A DNA stretch of 64,000 nucleotides from an uncultured Prevotella sp. GTDB lineage: Bacteria; Bacteroidota; Bacteroidia; Bacteroidales; Bacteroidaceae. A program made the translations under genes and the position numbers. Every line of letters begins with the position of its first letter. The stretch's first letter is position 1. The notes under the pieces were generated by a model that was not told the origin of the DNA, did no database searches, and saw only the letters and a program-made list of their open reading frames with translations. This document shows, piece after piece, positions 46,814 through 55,769 of this stretch. Location: assembly GCA_946548065.1 (NCBI GenBank), contig CAMNPM010000004.1, positions 28,769 through 92,768 on the forward strand, in the 5' to 3' direction.

Positions 46814-48736
46814 ATGGATATATATAGTTATTCCTTCCTGATTCTTCTGCTGCCTGCGCTCTCCTTCGTGATTCTTGCGCTGGCGGGTATGAAGATGTCG
46901 CATAAGACCGCAGGCCTTATCGGCACCACCTCGTTAGGATTGGTTACCGTGCTGTCCTATCTGACGGCTTTCGCCTATTTCGGAGGCGACCGTCTGGCTA
47001 ATGGCACATTCCCCACATTGGTTCCCTACAACTTCACCTGGCTGCCGCTGGGCAACCTACACTTCGACATGGGCATCCTGCTGGATCCTATCTCGGTGAT
47101 GATGCTCATCGTCATCAGCACGGTGTCGTTTATGGTACATGTCTATTCCTTCGGCTATATGCACGGTGAGAAGGGTTTCCAGCGTTACTACGCCTTCCTC
47201 TCGCTGTTCACCATGTCGATGCTCGGACTGGTGCTTGCCACCAATATCTTCCAGATGTACACTTTCTGGGAACTGGTGGGCGTCAGCTCTTATCTGCTCA
47301 TCGGTTTCTACTATCCGCTGAAGCCGGCCATAGCAGCATCCAAGAAAGCATTTATCGTGACGCGCTTTGCCGATATGTTCTTCCTTATCGGTATTCTGCT
47401 CTTCGGTTTCTATTCCGGTACGTTCTCATTCGACTTCACCGTCGAGGGTTCGGTACGCGAGTATGCCGGTGCTGCCTTCGTCCTGCCTACTGCCCTGGTG
47501 CTGATGTTCATTGGTGGTGCCGGTAAGTCGGCCATGTTCCCGCTGCACATTTGGCTGCCCGACGCTATGGAGGGTCCTACGCCTGTCTCCGCACTCATCC
47601 ATGCCGCTACGATGGTGGTGGCCGGTGTGTTCCAGATTGCACGTATGTTCCCCTTGTGGATCAATTACGCACCCTCGTCACTGAGCATTGTGGTCTGGGT
47701 GGGTGTATTCACCGCTTTCTATGCTGCCGCTGTGGCGTGTGCACAGAGTGACATCAAGCGTGTGCTGGCTTTCTCCACCATCTCGCAGATTGCCTTCATG
47801 ATGGTGGCTCTCGGTGTTTGTCTGCCCGGACATCATGGCGCCGTGCTCGACAACCACGCTCAGCTGGGCTATATGGCCTCGATGTTCCACCTGTTCACTC
47901 ACGCCATGTTCAAGGCTTGCTTGTTCCTTGGGGCCGGATGCATCATTCATGCTGTCCACAGCAACGAGATGTCGATGATGGGTGGCTTGCGCAAGTACAT
48001 GCCTATCACTCACATCACGTTCCTCATTTCATGTCTGGCCATTGCCGGTATTCCACCGTTCTCGGGATTCTTCTCGAAGGATGAGATCCTGACTGCCTGC
48101 ATGCAGTACAGTCCTGTCTGCGGTTGGATTATGACGGGTGTGGCTGCGATGACGGCATTCTATATGTTCCGCCTTTACTACGGCATCTTCTGGGGAACAG
48201 AGAATAAGGAGGCTCATGCTCATCATACACCCCACGAGGCACCGTGGACCATGACCTTCCCGCTGATATTCCTTTCGGTGGTCACCTGTCTGTGTGGCTT
48301 CCTGCCCTTCGGACACTTCGTGTCTGCCAGCGGTCAGGCCTACGACATCCACCTCGACTGGACCGTTGCAGGAACCTCTATTGTCATAGCAGTCTGCTCC
48401 ATCTGTCTGGCCACCTATATATATAAAGGTGAGTCGCAGCCCGTTGCCGACCGTCTGTTCAAGACGTTCCCACGTCTGCACCAGGCAGCCTACAAGCGCT
48501 TCTATCAGGATGAGATCTGGCAGTATGTCACTCACCGCATCATCTTCCGCTGCATCTCCAAGCCCGTGGCCTGGTTCGACCGCCACGTGGTTGACGGAAC
48601 GTTCAATTTCTTGGCCTGGGGTGCCAACGAGGCCGGTGAGAGCCTCCGTCCCTGGCAGAGCGGTGATGTGCGCCAGTATGCTGTGTGGTTCCTCACGGGA
48701 ACGGTGGCTTTAACGCTGGTTCTTTTGGCGGTTTAA
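46814..48736 (+). CDS. nuoL: Complex I subunit L
   Basis: 640-residue antiporter-like subunit at the distal end of the membrane arm, with about 16 helices and the lateral helix. Diagnostic text: YTFWELVGVSSYLLIGFYY, SAMFPLHIWLPDAMEGPTPVSALIHAATMVVAG, DIKRVLAFSTISQIAFMMVALG, THAMFKACLFLGAGCIIH and GIPPFSGFFSKDEIL. The three antiporter-like genes nuoL, nuoM and nuoN are in the usual order. Confidence 0.96.
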   Translation: MDIYSYSFLILLLPALSFVILALAGMKMSHKTAGLIGTTSLGLVTVLSYLTAFAYFGGDRLANGTFPTLVPYNFTWLPLGNLHFDMGILLDPISVMMLIVISTVSFMVHVYSFGYMHGEKGFQRYYAFLSLFTMSMLGLVLATNIFQMYTFWELVGVSSYLLIGFYYPLKPAIAASKKAFIVTRFADMFFLIGILLFGFYSGTFSFDFTVEGSVREYAGAAFVLPTALVLMFIGGAGKSAMFPLHIWLPDAMEGPTPVSALIHAATMVVAGVFQIARMFPLWINYAPSSLSIVVWVGVFTAFYAAAVACAQSDIKRVLAFSTISQIAFMMVALGVCLPGHHGAVLDNHAQLGYMASMFHLFTHAMFKACLFLGAGCIIHAVHSNEMSMMGGLRKYMPITHITFLISCLAIAGIPPFSGFFSKDEILTACMQYSPVCGWIMTGVAAMTAFYMFRLYYGIFWGTENKEAHAHHTPHEAPWTMTFPLIFLSVVTCLCGFLPFGHFVSASGQAYDIHLDWTVAGTSIVIAVCSICLATYIYKGESQPVADRLFKTFPRLHQAAYKRFYQDEIWQYVTHRIIFRCISKPVAWFDRHVVDGTFNFLAWGANEAGESLRPWQSGDVRQYAVWFLTGTVALTLVLLAV

Positions 48737-48741
48737 TAACA

Positions 48742-48797
48742 TCGAAATATCGAAGTCTCGAAACTTCGAAACCTCGAAATAACGAAACAACGAAACA
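48742..48797 (+). repeat. 8-bp tandem array (seven units) as the nuoL-nuoM spacer
   Basis: ATCGAAAT, ATCGAAGT, CTCGAAAC, TTCGAAAC, CTCGAAAT, AACGAAAC, AACGAAAC follow each other without gaps and end at the base before the nuoM ATG. Confidence 0.93.
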
Positions 48798-50279
48798 ATG
48801 AGTATATTAAGTTTATTTGTCGTAATTCCCGCCCTGATGCTCTTGGGCCTTTGGCTGGCCAAGAACCTTAGTCAGGTGCGTGGTGTGATGGTGGCAGGTG
48901 CCTCATGTCTGCTGGCCCTGTCCGTATGGCTTACCATCTATTTCGTTCAGCAGCGAGCCGCAGGCAATACCGACGTGATGCTGCTGACGGCTTCCACACC
49001 GTGGTTCAAGCCTCTGAATATAGCCTATTCCGTGGGTGTCGACGGCATTTCGGTGGTCATGCTGCTCCTGTCGAGCATCATCGTCTTCACCGGTACCTTC
49101 GCTTCCTGGCAGTTGAAACCTATGACGAAGGAGTATTTCCTTTGGTTCACCCTCCTCTCGACGGGTGTCTATGGCTTCTTCATCTGCACCGATATGTTCA
49201 CCATGTTTATGTTCTATGAGGTGGCTCTGATTCCCATGTACCTGCTGATAGGCGTGTGGGGCTCTGGCAACAAGGAGTATGCTGCTATGAAGCTGACCCT
49301 GATGCTGATGGGTGGCTCAGCCCTGCTGATTCTCGGCATCCTGGGCATCTATTACTTCAGTGGTGCCACTACGATGAATGTCAACGAGATTGCTGCCATG
49401 CACAATATCCCCGTTGAGACGCAGAAGATCTTCTTCCCGTTCATCTTCATCGGATTTGGCGTGCTGGGTGCGCTGTTCCCCTTCCATACATGGTCGCCCG
49501 ACGGTCATGCTTCAGCCCCTACGGCAGTGTCGATGCTGCATGCGGGTGTGCTGATGAAGCTGGGAGGCTACGGCTGTTTCCGTGTAGCCATGTACTTGCT
49601 GCCTGATGCTGCCAACGAACTGGCTTGGATATTCCTTATCCTGACCACCATCTCGGTAGTCTATGGTGCCTTCTCGGCTTGTGTGCAGACCGACCTGAAG
49701 TACATCAATGCTTATTCGTCCGTGTCGCACTGTGGACTGGTGCTCTTTGCTCTGCTCATGATGACCAAGACCTCTTGCACGGGTGCTATCCTGCAGATGC
49801 TGTCGCACGGTCTGATGACGGCCCTCTTCTTTGCCCTCATTGGTATGATCTATGGCCGCACCCACACCCGCGACATCCGCTACTTGGACGGTCTGATGAA
49901 GATTATGCCGTTCCTGGCCGTGGGCTATGTCGTGGCTGGTCTGGCCAACCTCGGTCTGCCGGGCTTCTCGGGCTTCATCGCTGAGATGACTATCTTCGTG
50001 GGTTCGTTCGAGAATGCCGACACCTTCCATCGTGTGGCTACCATCATCGCCTGTACGTCGATTGTCGTCACCGCTGTCTATATCCTGCGTGTCGTCGGTA
50101 AGATTCTGTATGGCGAGGTGAAGAACCCCCACTATCTGGAGCTCACCGATGCTACCTGGGACGAGCGTGTCGCCGTCATCTGCCTCATTGCTTGTGTGGC
50201 AGGCCTCGGACTCTTCCCCCTCTGGGCAAGCAATGTTATCAGCGATGCTGTAGGGCCCATCCTCGCGAACATCATATAA
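48798..50279 (+). CDS. nuoM: Complex I subunit M
   Basis: 493 residues, about 14 helices, antiporter-like proton pump subunit. Conserved Glu in MFYEVALIPMYLLIGVWG, the channel helix FPFHTWSPDGHASAPTAVSMLHAGVLMKLGGYG and DLKYINAYSSVSHCGLVLF. The gene is flanked on both sides by short-period repeat spacers. Confidence 0.96.
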   Translation: MSILSLFVVIPALMLLGLWLAKNLSQVRGVMVAGASCLLALSVWLTIYFVQQRAAGNTDVMLLTASTPWFKPLNIAYSVGVDGISVVMLLLSSIIVFTGTFASWQLKPMTKEYFLWFTLLSTGVYGFFICTDMFTMFMFYEVALIPMYLLIGVWGSGNKEYAAMKLTLMLMGGSALLILGILGIYYFSGATTMNVNEIAAMHNIPVETQKIFFPFIFIGFGVLGALFPFHTWSPDGHASAPTAVSMLHAGVLMKLGGYGCFRVAMYLLPDAANELAWIFLILTTISVVYGAFSACVQTDLKYINAYSSVSHCGLVLFALLMMTKTSCTGAILQMLSHGLMTALFFALIGMIYGRTHTRDIRYLDGLMKIMPFLAVGYVVAGLANLGLPGFSGFIAEMTIFVGSFENADTFHRVATIIACTSIVVTAVYILRVVGKILYGEVKNPHYLELTDATWDERVAVICLIACVAGLGLFPLWASNVISDAVGPILANII

Positions 50280-50281
50280 AC

Positions 50282-50339
50282 GGTAAATTCGCCAAATAGT
50301 AAATAAATCGTAAATAGTAAATCGTTAAATCGTAAATTA
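50282..50339 (+). repeat. 7-8-bp (C/A)GTAAAT array as the nuoM-nuoN spacer
   Basis: Units of the type CGTAAAT, AGTAAAT and CGTTAAAT fill the spacer. It contains the word AAATCGTAAATAGTAAATCG (plus T), which is repeated exactly inside nuoN at 50643. Confidence 0.88.
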
Positions 50340-50344
50340 CTTTT

Positions 50345-51826
50345 ATGGGATATAGTCAATTCTTAAATATGATTCCCGAGGCCTTCCTGGTTCTCGCATT
50401 GATTCTGGTGTTCTTTGCCGACTTCAGCCTGATGAAGAGCGAGCGCAAGAATGCCGTGCTCAGCAAGCTGACCGGAGCCTTGCTCATCTGTCTGATGCTG
50501 CTTACCACCACCGTGAGTCCCGCTCAGGCTTTTGGTGGCATGTACATCTCGTCCCAGGCCGCCAATGTGATGAAGATGATCCTGACCCTGGGAACGCTCA
50601 TCGTGGTTATCATGGCACAGCCCTGGCTCGAAGGCGGTTGCCAAATCGTAAATAGTAAATCGTCAAGTAGTAAATACAGTGGCGAGTTCTATCTGCTGGT
50701 GCTCTCGACACTGTTGGGCATGTTCATCATGATGTCCAGCGGCCACTTCCTGCTGTTCTTCCTCGGACTGGAGACAGCCTCGGTGCCTATGGCCTGTCTG
50801 GTGGCTTTCGACAAGTGGAAGCGAAACTCAGCTGAGGGTGCTGCCAAATACATTCTGACGGCTACCTTCTCCAGCGGCGTGATGCTTTATGGCCTGTCGT
50901 TCCTCTATGGCGGCGTGGGTACTCTCTACTTTGATGATGTGGCCCAGCGCATTGCCTATTTCGCTCAGTATAAGAGCCAGCTGCCCTTGCTCATCATGGG
51001 GCTGGTGTTCTTCTTCAGCGGCCTGGGCTTCAAGCTGTCGCTCGTACCCTTCCACTTCTGGACGGCCGACACCTATCAGGGTGCTCCCACACCCGTCACT
51101 GGCTATCTCTCGGTAGTCTCGAAGGGTGCTGCCGCTTTTGCTCTGATGATCATCCTTGTGAAGGCCTTCGGTCCGCTTACTCAGTATTGGGAGTATCTGC
51201 TCTACATCGTCATCGTGCTTAGCATCACCATTGCCAACCTGTTTGCCATCCGCCAGTTGGAGCTCAAGCGTTTCATGGCCTTCAGCTCTATCTCACAGGC
51301 CGGATACATCATGCTGGCCGTCATCGGTTCCGCACAGGTGGGCATGACCGCTCTGATGTATTATGTGCTGATCTATGTGGTAGCCAACATGGCTGTGTTC
51401 ACTGTCATCTCGACGGTCGAGCAGAATAATGGCGGCACCACCCAGATGTCGAGCTACGACGGACTATACCAGACCAACCCCAAGCTGGCGTTCCTCATGA
51501 CGCTCGCCCTCTTCTCGCTGGCCGGTATTCCTCCGTTTGCAGGTATGTTCTCCAAGTTCTTCGTCTTCATGGCCGCCGCCCAGCAGGGTTCCTTCTGGGC
51601 CTATTTCGTGGTGTTCATCGCTTTGGTCAATACGGTGGTGAGCTTGTACTACTATCTGCTCATTGTCAAGGCGATGTATATCAAGCAGACCGACAGCCCG
51701 CTGCCCACCTTCACGACGGCTGGCAGTACGCGTCTGGCTCTGGCCGTCTGCACCGCAGGCATCGTGCTCTTCGGCATCTGCTCTTGCATCTACGACTATC
51801 TCTTTGCAGCGTCTGCTACATTGTAG
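50345..51826 (+). CDS. nuoN: Complex I subunit N
   Basis: 493 residues, about 14 helices, antiporter-like subunit at the inner end of the arm. Diagnostic text: HFLLFFLGLETASVPMACLVAFDKWKRNSAEGAAKY, KLSLVPFHFWTADTYQGAPTPVTGYLSVVSKGAAA, LKRFMAFSSISQAGYIMLAVIG and GIPPFAGMFSKFFVF. A low-complexity insertion QIVNSKSSSSKYS lies in the loop before GEFYLLVLSTLLG and is encoded by a copy of the upstream spacer repeat. Last gene of the operon, followed by a strong hairpin terminator. Confidence 0.96.
   Translation: MGYSQFLNMIPEAFLVLALILVFFADFSLMKSERKNAVLSKLTGALLICLMLLTTTVSPAQAFGGMYISSQAANVMKMILTLGTLIVVIMAQPWLEGGCQIVNSKSSSSKYSGEFYLLVLSTLLGMFIMMSSGHFLLFFLGLETASVPMACLVAFDKWKRNSAEGAAKYILTATFSSGVMLYGLSFLYGGVGTLYFDDVAQRIAYFAQYKSQLPLLIMGLVFFFSGLGFKLSLVPFHFWTADTYQGAPTPVTGYLSVVSKGAAAFALMIILVKAFGPLTQYWEYLLYIVIVLSITIANLFAIRQLELKRFMAFSSISQAGYIMLAVIGSAQVGMTALMYYVLIYVVANMAVFTVISTVEQNNGGTTQMSSYDGLYQTNPKLAFLMTLALFSLAGIPPFAGMFSKFFVFMAAAQQGSFWAYFVVFIALVNTVVSLYYYLLIVKAMYIKQTDSPLPTFTTAGSTRLALAVCTAGIVLFGICSCIYDYLFAASATL
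50642..50676 (+). repeat. In-frame copy of the nuoM-nuoN spacer repeat inside nuoN
   Basis: CAAATCGTAAATAGTAAATC and the following GTCAAGTAGTAAAT encode QIVNSKSSSSK. The first 21 bases after the C are identical to part of the spacer about 330 bases upstream. Confidence 0.92.
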
Positions 51827-51964: not shown

Positions 51965-53209
51965 TTATTTCTTCAAGTTGAATCGGATGCCCAGCTGTAG
52001 GTTCCAGTTGGCGGGGTGGTCTTTGAAGAAGTTCTGCACCTTGCTGCCGTTGTCCGGATAGTAGCGCAGTCCAGGCTCCACGTAGATGCCCAGCCACGGG
52101 GCTACATGATATTCAGCTCCTACGGCACCCCCCATCGACCATTGCGGACGGTCGCGCTGCATCTGTGTCTCCACGCCCTCAGTCACCGACTTGGCATGTA
52201 GGTTCCAGTCTATCTCCATACCCGCTGAGGCATACAGTCGCCATCGTTGTCTCTCCACGATGTCGTATTGTATGCTGAGGGGTACACCCAGATAGTGCAG
52301 TGTCTGGTCGGTACCGATGCTCACCTGTTTCATCGTGGTGCTGAAGTCCGACCGCAGTCGGGTATAAACCAGACCGGTGCCTATAGTCCATCGTGTGCTC
52401 AGCGGGTAGCTGACGGTCAGTCCTATGGATATGGGCTGACTGTGGTGCTGTCGCTCCTCATGTCCTACCAGCCAGATGGGTTCGTTGCTGTTAGCAGTGC
52501 GTGTGGGCAGATAGTCGGAGAAGTCGTAGTGCTTAGCCATCTCGGGACTCATCTGTACCCCATTGCTGTGTGTGTAGGCTAATAGTCCTCCGTTGGCATG
52601 CAGTCCGAGGCTCAGCGACTTACGCCCTTTCTTGGCTGGCTGTCGGGCTGTCGTGGGTTCCTGCTGTCGGGCTGTCATAGTTCCCTGTTGTCGGTTGGCA
52701 GGCTTGGTGCTCTGGGGGTGGGGTAGAGTGGGCTGTTGCGCTCCGTGTTGTTCACCGTTAGCATTGCCGTTGCTGGCGTCGACCATCTCGCTATGATCTG
52801 TCCTTGCATTATTGTCGGTCATCTCGCTATCATTGGTCGCCTCGCAGATCTGGCTGTCTGCGCGGTGTGGCAGGGGTGCTGTCGCCGTGCTGAGGGGGCG
52901 TTCTGCCTGTGCGGTGGCTTTCTCCATTGTCAGGACTGATGCTTGCTGCTGTGCTGTCGCTGGTGCCTGCTGCTGTGCTGTCAGTAGGGCTTGCTGTTGC
53001 TGCTTGTTGGCAGGCCATAGCCACCAGGCGGTGCTGCTGACCATTAACAGTACTGCTGCCGCACTGACCCAGCGGTGCCAGAGGGGTGTTGTCTTTGTGT
53101 GCTGCTGAGGCAACGACTGTTTGATGTCGGTCCACAGCCCTTCTGGGACGGCTGCTTCGTAGTCGGCCATCCTGTCGCGCAGTTTCTGGGTCCAGTCTTG
53201 TTGCTTCAT
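51965..53209 (-). CDS. Candidate anti-sigma protein joining a cytoplasmic segment, one TM helix and an outer-membrane barrel
   Basis: 414 residues. Residues 1-45 (DWTQKLRDRMADYEAAVPEGLWTDI) resemble the N-terminal segments of Bacteroidetes proteins encoded next to ECF sigma factors. One membrane helix follows at about 48-65 (VSAAAVLLMVSSTAWWLW), then a Q/T/A/N-rich linker to about 195 and a barrel-like domain (SLSLGLHANGGLLAY to WNLQLGIRFNLKK). There is no N-terminal signal peptide. It overlaps the ECF sigma gene by four bases. I infer a membrane-bound partner of that sigma factor; barrel insertion in the outer membrane is a prediction. The linker holds two sets of 24-bp duplications. Confidence 0.7.
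   Translation of the reverse strand: MKQQDWTQKLRDRMADYEAAVPEGLWTDIKQSLPQQHTKTTPLWHRWVSAAAVLLMVSSTAWWLWPANKQQQQALLTAQQQAPATAQQQASVLTMEKATAQAERPLSTATAPLPHRADSQICEATNDSEMTDNNARTDHSEMVDASNGNANGEQHGAQQPTLPHPQSTKPANRQQGTMTARQQEPTTARQPAKKGRKSLSLGLHANGGLLAYTHSNGVQMSPEMAKHYDFSDYLPTRTANSNEPIWLVGHEERQHHSQPISIGLTVSYPLSTRWTIGTGLVYTRLRSDFSTTMKQVSIGTDQTLHYLGVPLSIQYDIVERQRWRLYASAGMEIDWNLHAKSVTEGVETQMQRDRPQWSMGGAVGAEYHVAPWLGIYVEPGLRYYPDNGSKVQNFFKDHPANWNLQLGIRFNLKK
52646..52693 (-). repeat. 24-bp duplication in the linker (RQQGTMTA / RQQEPTTA)
   Basis: Two adjacent eight-codon units, sharing a CGACAGCAGG/GACAGC pattern, encode residues 173-188 of the barrel-linker protein, just before the barrel. Confidence 0.75.
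52934..52981 (-). repeat. 24-bp duplication in the linker (TAQQQAPA / TAQQQASV)
   Basis: Two adjacent eight-codon units encode residues 77-92, shortly after the membrane helix. Confidence 0.75.
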
Positions 53210-53748
53210 AGCTTGTTGTTTTTTATATAGTTGTTGATGAGTCTGGCGAGTGTTTGTTTCGCCCTTGCGTATTGCGAGGCAGAGGTTTCGGGCTTGATGC
53301 CTAAGAGTTGGCCTATTTCGCGGTGCGACAGCTGTTGGAAGATGTATAGGTTGAGCACCGTTCTATAGCCAGTAGGCAGCTGTGCTATCAGCCTGTTGAG
53401 CACATCGGGAGGCACTCGCCCCACGTCGGGCTCCTCTTCTGCTGCCGCCTCTGGCAGATGGTCGGTCAGCAGTAGCCGGTCGTGTCGCTTCAGATGGTCA
53501 ATGGCCTGATGGGCCACTATTCGCAGCACCCACGCCTTGAGCGACCCCTCGCCGCGATAGCCAAATCGGCTGATGGTGGTCAGAATGCTGACGAAGCTGT
53601 CTTGCACCACGTCGCGAGCCGCGTCCTGGCTGCCCACATAGCGCAGTGCCGTGGCCATAGCCATGCCCGCAAAGCGTTCGTACAGTCGTTGCTGTGCGCC
53701 TTGTTCGCCACTCCTGATGCTCTCCAGCAGACGTTGCTCTGTCTCCAC
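53206..53748 (-). CDS. ECF sigma-70 family RNA polymerase sigma factor
   Basis: 180 residues with sigma region 2 (RLYERFAGMAMATALRYVGSQDAARDVVQDSF, and the helix RGEGSLKAWVLRIVAHQAIDHLKR) and region 4 (LPTGYRTVLNLYIFQQLSHREIGQLLGIKPETSASQYARAK). It directs transcription of a small regulon, probably including its own operon. Downstream partner gene overlaps by four bases (ATGA). Upstream lies a lipoprotein gene 16 bases away, so lipoprotein, sigma and barrel-linker protein form one unit. No TAnnTTTG box is seen before this unit, which is in line with a sigma-specific promoter. Confidence 0.92.
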   Translation of the reverse strand: METEQRLLESIRSGEQGAQQRLYERFAGMAMATALRYVGSQDAARDVVQDSFVSILTTISRFGYRGEGSLKAWVLRIVAHQAIDHLKRHDRLLLTDHLPEAAAEEEPDVGRVPPDVLNRLIAQLPTGYRTVLNLYIFQQLSHREIGQLLGIKPETSASQYARAKQTLARLINNYIKNNKL

Positions 53749-53764: not shown

Positions 53765-54358
53765 TCAGTTCAGGCGTTTGGTGGTCACGAGTGTGAGGGG
53801 CAGTGGCGGCTCAAGTGTGTTGGCATCGTCGGTCACCAGCGAAGAATACATATTGTAAATCTTCACCTTCTGTACGCTCCACACGATGGTCCACGTGTCC
53901 TTTACCGTGTCCCACATCGAGAGAAGTGTTGCCTGTATGTCTACTCGGTATATTGTCTTGCCCACCTCCACCATGTAGTGGCTCCACTGCTCGGTGTCGT
54001 CCTGCTCGTTGTAGATGACGTCAAGCGTGTATCCATACGGACTGATGTGCCATTCTGGGTAGCTGATGTTTTTGATGTCGGCCGTCTGCTCGTTGGTGGG
54101 CAGGAAAGGACGTACCACGAATTCGTTGGGCATGTGGGCCACTGAGATGGTGTTGCCGTTGATGGTCATCTGCGTCTTGTCCACCACCTGTTGATTGACC
54201 ACCCACTGGGCTTCATACTGCGTTCCCTGCATGCTGTTCGTCATGTTGTTCTGCGCGTAGCCCGCAGGCAGTTCCGATTCTTCTTTGCTGCAGCTGCTGC
54301 AGAGGCCGAGTGTCAGCACGAGTAGCAGCAGACGGTTGAATGTTTTTTGTTTCATCAT
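53765..54358 (-). CDS. Lipoprotein of unknown function, first gene of the ECF sigma operon
   Basis: 197 residues from MMKQKTFNRLLLLVLTLGLCSSCSKEE at 54358 with a lipoprotein signal; the 333-residue ORF of the track runs 136 residues too far upstream. The rest is beta-rich with no family I recognise (NGNTISVAHMPNEFVVRPFLP, PEWHISPYGYTLDVIYN, VEVGKTIYRVDIQATLL). It may be an immunoglobulin-like or lipocalin-like surface protein. Sixteen bases separate it from the sigma gene, and a role in sensing or as a regulon member is possible. Confidence 0.75.
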   Translation of the reverse strand: MMKQKTFNRLLLLVLTLGLCSSCSKEESELPAGYAQNNMTNSMQGTQYEAQWVVNQQVVDKTQMTINGNTISVAHMPNEFVVRPFLPTNEQTADIKNISYPEWHISPYGYTLDVIYNEQDDTEQWSHYMVEVGKTIYRVDIQATLLSMWDTVKDTWTIVWSVQKVKIYNMYSSLVTDDANTLEPPLPLTLVTTKRLN

Positions 54359-54509
54359 TGTGGTCGTTCGTTTTTTACTATATAAACTAATGTACGCGTA
54401 AATCCTTGCACCATACTCTCGCTGTTTAACTTTTATTAACCGATCGCCATGCAAGTTTTTTTTACTCAGCAGGTTTATGTCAATATAAACCATTTTAAAG
54501 TTAGCAGAT

Positions 54510-55769
54510 ATGATGAGAAATCTCTTAATTGCACTGCCCGTTGCCTTGGCGATGACAGCATGCAGCAGTAACAGTGACGACCAGCCCTCTCCGGTCATCT
54601 GTCCTACATCCGGTATCACCTTGACACGGACCGAGCAGGCACTCGTGGCATCGAACAACGACTTTGCCTTCAACCTCTTGCGGCAGGCCACCCCCCAGTA
54701 TGCCCCTAACGGCCCTCGCTCAGATGAAGCTGAGAAGAATCTGATACTGTCGCCCATCAGCATCACTTACGCGCTGGGCATGCTGAACAATGGTGCTGCG
54801 GGCGAGACACAGCAGCAGATTAATAAGGTGCTGGGATTCCAGGATGCCGGACAGGTCAACGAATTCTGCCGGAAGATGTACCATGAGGCTCCCCGTCTGG
54901 ATGAGAGCACCAAGGTGTCCATCGCCAACAACATCTATGTGAACCAGGGTTATGAGCTGCGCCCGGCATTCGTGGAGAAAGCTCTCAGCTACTACGATGC
55001 GCAGCCCGAGACGCGCAACTTCCACGACGGTCAGACCATGAACGTCATCAACCAGTGGGCCAGCAGCCACACCAACGGTATGATCAGCAAGGTGCTTAAT
55101 GAGGATACGTTCAACCCCGATGCGGTGAGCTATCTGCTCAATGCCACCTACTTCAAGGGCGAATGGAGTCGGAAATTTAATAAGTCGCAGACCCACAAGC
55201 AGCCGTTCCGTGGTTTAACGAGCGTCAGTCAGGTGGAGATGATGAGTCTGGAAGCCCGTTTCAGCTACACCAGCGATGATGACTGCAAACTGCTACAGCT
55301 GCCTTACGGCAACGGTGCCTACTGCATGACCATCCTGCTGCCCAACAGTCAGACGGCCACGCTTGCCCAGCTGAGAGCGAAGCTTACCTCTGTGTACTGG
55401 CAGCAGTTGCTGCGGCAGTGTACCAACGAGGATGTCGTGGTCCAGTTGCCCCGCTTTGAGGCACAGACCGACACCGACCTGATTAGCTACCTGTCTGCAC
55501 TCGGCATGTCCAGGGCTTTCGACCCATATAATGCTGAGTTCCCAGACTTCTGCAACCGCTCCACCTACATCGGAATGATGAAGCAGGCGGCCCGCATCCG
55601 TGTCGACGAGGAAGGTGCCGAGGCTGCTGCCGTCACTACCACAGGCATGTGTACGACTAGCATTGACTACTACAGGAAAAGTTTCATTGCCGACCATCCC
55701 TTCCTCTATGTCATCAGTGAGCAGTCTACCGGAGCCATCTTCTTCATTGGCCAGTACACCGGCAACTGA
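54510..55769 (+). CDS. Serpin-family lipoprotein (protease inhibitor)
   Basis: 419 residues. Lipoprotein signal ALPVALAMTACSSN, then a full serpin fold: NLILSPISITYALGMLNNGA, LLNATYFKGEWSRKF and the C-terminal HPFLYVISEQSTGAIFFIGQY. The reactive-centre hinge EEGAEAAAVTTT keeps small residues as in inhibitory serpins. Counting from the hinge Gly as P15, P1-P1' would be Thr-Ser in GMCTTSID, with an uncertainty of one or two positions. It probably guards the cell surface against host or competitor proteases. Own terminator follows. Confidence 0.93.
   Translation: MMRNLLIALPVALAMTACSSNSDDQPSPVICPTSGITLTRTEQALVASNNDFAFNLLRQATPQYAPNGPRSDEAEKNLILSPISITYALGMLNNGAAGETQQQINKVLGFQDAGQVNEFCRKMYHEAPRLDESTKVSIANNIYVNQGYELRPAFVEKALSYYDAQPETRNFHDGQTMNVINQWASSHTNGMISKVLNEDTFNPDAVSYLLNATYFKGEWSRKFNKSQTHKQPFRGLTSVSQVEMMSLEARFSYTSDDDCKLLQLPYGNGAYCMTILLPNSQTATLAQLRAKLTSVYWQQLLRQCTNEDVVVQLPRFEAQTDTDLISYLSALGMSRAFDPYNAEFPDFCNRSTYIGMMKQAARIRVDEEGAEAAAVTTTGMCTTSIDYYRKSFIADHPFLYVISEQSTGAIFFIGQYTGN

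Follow-up and report, generated by a model that had tools for sequence, protein, structure and literature searches.

A Dma-type anti-sigma factor predicted to link an ECF sigma factor to the outer membrane in an uncultured Prevotella sp.

In FecR-type signaling, the state of the outer membrane controls an ECF sigma factor through an inner-membrane anti-sigma factor, and a separate TonB-dependent receptor is needed. In 2022, an anti-sigma factor of P. vulgatus (M0N98_03760/03761 pair) was predicted to span the periplasm and to carry a barrel in the outer membrane. A protective regulon was switched on when the anti-sigma factor was lost or the BcpT toxin was present, and the sigma gene was up 33-fold under BcpT (PMC9308784). 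In 2026, the dual membrane-spanning anti-sigma (Dma) family, made of four parts and found only in Bacteroidota, was described; dma genes adjoin ECF21 sigma genes, and loss of Dma raises vesicle production (PMC13088901). The Δdma2 phenotype requires das2, which itself rises, and Dma2 affects mainly its own operon and PULs (PMC13088901). Dma1 and Dma2, with Das1 and Das2 of Bacteroides thetaiotaomicron, go back to a PNAS 2024 description (pmid 38422018, as cited in PMC13088901). As to what triggers Dma, these papers go no further than probable envelope stress (PMC9308784, PMC13088901).

The window (the whole 64-kb stretch of DNA that was analyzed) encodes a 414-aa protein in which barrel and anti-sigma factor form one chain, as opposed to the separate components of FecR-type signaling. 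Its gene, the main parts of its product and the adjacent sigma gene are as follows.

51965..53209, minus strand: Dma-type anti-sigma gene, 414 aa (Pfam, AlphaFold model, alignment, fold match)
53075..53209, minus strand: residues 1-45, predicted cytoplasmic helical anti-sigma domain, W6, L10 and I29 conserved (alignment and model helices)
53015..53080, minus strand: single predicted inner-membrane helix, residues ~44-65 (model and hydropathy)
52619..53014, minus strand: disordered linker, residues ~66-197, predicted to cross the periplasm (pLDDT; length 132 aa)
51968..52618, minus strand: residues 198-414, predicted 8-strand outer-membrane beta-barrel (Pfam, model, fold match)
53206..53748, minus strand: cognate ECF sigma factor gene, 180 aa, GTG start (Sigma70_r2 and r4_2 by Pfam; tree)

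A sequence-only reading of this DNA had described a short N-terminus, one helix, a linker of ~130 aa and a barrel-like domain of ~215 aa, for which we measured 45 aa, one helix, 132 aa and 217 aa. Its overall view, of one chain reaching from the sigma factor to the outer membrane, was correct in outline and largely right. It was also already in print; because an identical layout and interpretation have been published (PMC9308784, PMC13088901), the reading of this locus is not new.

The likeness to Dma1 and Dma2 of B. thetaiotaomicron comprises an N-terminal sigma-binding domain, one helix, a long disordered tether and a barrel, beside an ECF sigma gene. It is a likeness of layout and gene pairing; sequence homology was established against the P. 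vulgatus protein, and the loci returned by a contig scan with a Phocaeicola-type protein included none from B. thetaiotaomicron. Unlike that of Dma2, which contains a DUF4943 gene, the window operon begins with an unrelated lipoprotein gene; the genus also differs. The P. vulgatus pairs (M0N98_03760/03761 and our locus L114) likewise consist of a sigma gene followed by an anti-sigma factor predicted to span the periplasm and end in a barrel. P. vulgatus carries two such sigma/anti-sigma pairs, of which L114 is one; either could be M0N98_03760/03761. The L114 protein, from P. vulgatus ATCC 8482, is homologous to the window protein over its full length (BLASTP E 1.3e-37, 25% identity), with E 2e-7 for the N-terminus and E 1e-35 for the barrel; the two linkers gave no significant BLASTP match. 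At L114, unlike at the window locus, a NigD-like lipoprotein gene lies divergently, and the upstream motif is another one. Dma3 shares the order sigma factor, membrane helix, linker and barrel but is one polypeptide, and its copies from the genus of the window have no separate anti-sigma domain.

Such proteins are widespread in the genus and family of the window. Matches were found in 111 of 150 genomes of the genus and, at the family level, in 89 of 121 genomes and 15 of 16 genera; across the order, 43 of 148 genomes had a match at E 1e-10. The family here is the GTDB Bacteroidaceae, as its genome G340 shares motif coordinates with the Phocaeicola massiliensis record G411. The genome assembly of the window, which is 74% complete, has one such gene. 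Dma3-like fusions are common in the genus, and the seven examined (L039-L045) form one sigma clade, each being a single ~550-610-aa ORF that joins the sigma factor to a membrane helix, a linker and a barrel and lacks a separate anti-sigma domain. A SAM methyltransferase-like gene lies beside the fusions L040 and L041 and also beside the split pair L172 of P. vulgatus, a shared neighbor suggesting one genomic site for both the fused and the split form.

The C-terminal domain is predicted to be an outer-membrane barrel. Pfam OMP_b-brl_2 matches it above the family cut-off (E 1.7e-12), and in the AlphaFold model (input, a 36-row alignment) the strands fall between residues 199 and 412, with pLDDT >90 across most of 251-410. 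A sequence search against solved structures gave no match for the protein. By VIA-align, the best solved-structure match to the modeled barrel was OprF (4rlc; Z 16.4, rmsd 2.0, 132 of 135 residues), with further matches to OmpA (1bxw, Z 15.8), NspA (15.4) and OmpW (15.2), rmsd ranging from 2.0 to 3.3; designed transmembrane barrels were also among the matches. The predicted model is thus a closed 8-strand barrel of the OmpA/OprF type, and the protein ends in LQLGIRFNLKK, conserved as LQxGxR in most relatives. The sequence-only reading would have fallen had a soluble periplasmic beta domain been predicted; since the top-ranked structures are 8-strand outer-membrane barrels, a membrane barrel is the predicted form.

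At the other end of the chain, the model places helices at residues 3-14 and 25-32 and the membrane helix at 44-63, with the hydropathy maximum at 47-65. As the sole hydrophobic helix of the N-terminal part, this segment would act as a signal anchor. A ~40-residue N-terminal motif, W..L..LW..I, is conserved across relatives. The pLDDT of the N-terminus was only ~65 in the model of the anti-sigma factor alone and ~80-90 in a read-through fusion fold with the sigma factor of the relative L029, a weak result which we do not use as proof of sigma contact because the read-through forced one continuous fused helix. A fold search with the read-through model matched ECF sigma factors, several of them from sigma/anti-sigma complexes, and the anti-sigma part lay outside the matches.

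The genetic linkage to the sigma factor is tight. The anti-sigma gene starts within the sigma gene stop, in a 4-nt overlap (ATGA), which is also the commonest spacing among relatives (58 of 112 loci). Of 124 loci (a set that includes the window and counts a few loci twice), 112 have a co-oriented ECF sigma gene immediately upstream, and sigma factor and barrel share one ORF in seven, which were picked from long frames so that their share is no frequency. No sigma gene was found in the stretch examined at the other 5 of 124 loci, at least two of which are gene fragments. In the sigma tree, all dma-linked sigma factors, including that of P. vulgatus ATCC 8482 and the fusions, fell on one side of a 100/99 branch, the contrast set being the six other ECF sigma factors of the window genome, several of them long-branched. 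A single sigma clade, the 4-nt overlap and the conserved N-terminal motif together support the sigma/anti-sigma pairing proposed from the letters of the DNA; binding of the adjacent ECF sigma factor by residues 1-45 is predicted.

The linker (residues ~66-198 in the model) has no secondary structure, and its pLDDT is mostly below 50-55. It contains two in-frame repeat arrays, claimed earlier as 24-bp duplications.

52936..53004, minus strand: 24-bp tandem array 1 of the linker, 2.8 copies (overlapping TRF rows)
52639..52694, minus strand: 24-bp tandem array 2 of the linker, 2.3 copies

Both have period 24, with scores of 80 (array 1) and 77 (array 2); the former encodes TAQQQAPA/TAQQQAS from residue 77 and the latter TARQQEPT/TARQP from residue 179. 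Both exceed chance, a score of 77 being reached by 0 of 1,000 codon shuffles of the window linker. Tandem arrays were detected in 16 of 111 linkers (codon-shuffle mean, 0.5), the best period being a multiple of three in 14 of them; the 111 barrels and the 111 N-terminal parts had none. In the nearest relative (L010), the 109-aa linker carries period-24 and period-30 arrays of its own. The in-frame arrays of relatives indicate that, between species, linkers change length by in-frame duplication, and the earlier suggestion that linker length may vary was borne out at the species level. Over 112 split proteins, one of them truncated, linker length averaged 131.7 aa (SD 15.3, range 99-182), and pairwise identity was 11% for the linker versus 33% for the barrel and 32% for the N-terminal domain. 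What appears to be kept in the linker is therefore its length, not its sequence. Taking 0.36 nm per residue, the contour length is 36 nm for the shortest linker and 47 nm for that of the window. A free coil of 132 residues would measure ~10 nm, and the periplasm is ~20 nm or more in width, so a spanning linker would be stretched.

Upstream of the sigma gene, the operon contains one more gene, preceded by a promoter-like element.

53765..54358, minus strand: operon-leading gene for a predicted 197-aa lipoprotein, with lipobox LCSSC and then SKEE
54381..54410, minus strand: element TGCAAGGATTTACGCGTACATTAGTTTATA, resembling a promoter (TGCAAG-N17-GTTTATA), 22 nt ahead of the start of the lipoprotein gene

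The lipoprotein gene ends 16 nt before the sigma gene on the same strand. SKEE after the lipobox cysteine resembles a surface-export signal, the published consensus being C-X-K-(D/E)2 (PMC5080379). For the window lipoprotein, Pfam gave nothing even with an E limit of 10; a NigD-like identity was rejected, as it matched neither NigD_N nor NigD_C, domains that are present near other dma loci. A same-strand ORF lies just upstream of the sigma gene in 59 of 112 loci, 34 of these with a lipobox by a simple pattern, and relatives of the window lipoprotein were recognizable at only 12 other loci (phmmer, weakest E 3.5e-4). The lipoprotein-like genes that precede the sigma gene in ~59 loci are fast-evolving. 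Around the operon, by eye, a serpin-like lipoprotein gene (54510-55769) is divergent from it, and nuoL-, nuoM- and nuoN-like genes for NADH dehydrogenase subunits (46814-51826, read from translations) lie on the opposite strand and converge with it.

The element at 54381-54410 is a candidate operon promoter. Visual comparison of several upstream regions yielded a pattern (TGCAAG, then optionally G/A, ATT, 10-15 free bases, GTT, A/T) that occurred in 16 of 109 upstream regions. The reverse strand had 2 occurrences, and none of 20 shuffles had more than 1; these counts flatter the pattern because it was built partly from the same sequences. It occurs once in the window, at 54410-54384 on the minus strand, just before the lipoprotein gene. 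The form TGCAAGATTT-N10-13-GTTA was found exactly once per genome in seven related genomes, ~1.2-1.4 kb before the anti-sigma gene, i.e., at the head of the dma operon; in G142, the single match lay on another contig. It was absent from two genomes scanned, including that of the window, and its reversed control had no match in the genome-wide scan of related genomes. TGCAAG-N16-18-GTTTATA had one match in the whole assembly, at the window operon; since this pattern was taken from the window itself, the one informative point is that the assembly has no further site. TAnnTTTG is the Bacteroides housekeeping -7 box, and it lies inside the element spacer in some relatives, making a housekeeping promoter an alternative reading of the element. 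A single genome-wide site at the operon head agrees with autoregulation of the operon, which has been described for Dma2 (PMC13088901). Elsewhere in the family, GCAGTA-N13-17-CATTT stands 27-56 nt before the dma-linked sigma gene in 23 of 112 loci, mostly of Phocaeicola/Bacteroides (L096, L114, L118, L126 and others), and is a candidate sigma factor promoter; it also precedes the divergent NigD-like gene in G355 and other lipoprotein-like genes. The Phocaeicola motif GCAGTAT-N14-CATTT had no match in the genome of the window.

Taken as a whole, the locus is best explained, with a probability of roughly 0.87, by a chain that probably extends from the cytoplasm across both membranes and keeps hold of the sigma factor as long as the outer membrane is undisturbed. 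Its N-terminal 45 residues would bind the adjacent ECF sigma factor and retain it on the cytoplasmic side; the signal-anchor helix would cross the inner membrane, leaving the C-terminus outside; the stretched disordered tether would bridge the periplasm; and the barrel, folded in the outer membrane, would be the sensor. Were the barrel perturbed, misassembled, lost or bound, tether tension might change or the anchor might be cleaved, freeing the sigma factor, which would then transcribe its own operon (lipoprotein, sigma factor, anti-sigma factor) from the element at 54381-54410.

A disordered linker unconserved in sequence would be easy to cut, and a protease might cut it constitutively, leaving an inner-membrane anti-sigma stub and a free small outer-membrane barrel that are linked by co-production, with no transducer between them. 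We consider this improbable: linker length stays near 132 aa (SD 15, minimum 99) at 11% identity, as expected if the periplasm must be spanned, and the sigma-barrel fusions retain the membrane helix-linker-barrel layout. A structural tether across the periplasm, or a porin, that happens to follow a sigma gene would suit a fold common among small barrels, but the sigma linkage (112 of 124 loci plus the seven fusions), the single sigma clade, the 4-nt overlap and the conserved W..L..LW..I motif make it very hard to credit.

The lipoprotein raises a different issue. It could be a partner of the anti-sigma barrel, and should it be the lipoprotein that really senses the outer membrane, or should it act as a lid over the barrel, the system would have a separate receptor after all. 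The frequency of same-strand ORFs before the sigma gene, many with a lipobox, and the export-signal-like SKEE of the window copy point that way; against it, these lipoproteins are highly divergent, many loci are without one, and the lipoprotein may just as well be one of the products that the sigma factor turns on. On balance we find a lipoprotein sensor rather unlikely and favor the barrel as the sensor. A tentative further reading, possible but still doubtful, is that this lineage has a closed circuit in which the one dedicated promoter of the sigma factor in the genome is that of its own operon. Outer-membrane stress would then chiefly yield a lipoprotein exported to the surface, which would cap or repair the barrel and so switch the system off.

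The new detail lies in a linker whose length is kept without its sequence, in-frame repeats confined to linkers, an operon-first lipoprotein with an export-like motif and a promoter-like element. The candidate promoter offers a handle for testing the regulon. Whereas envelope stress signals mostly pass through several proteins in turn, a single chain may here connect the outer membrane with a transcription switch.
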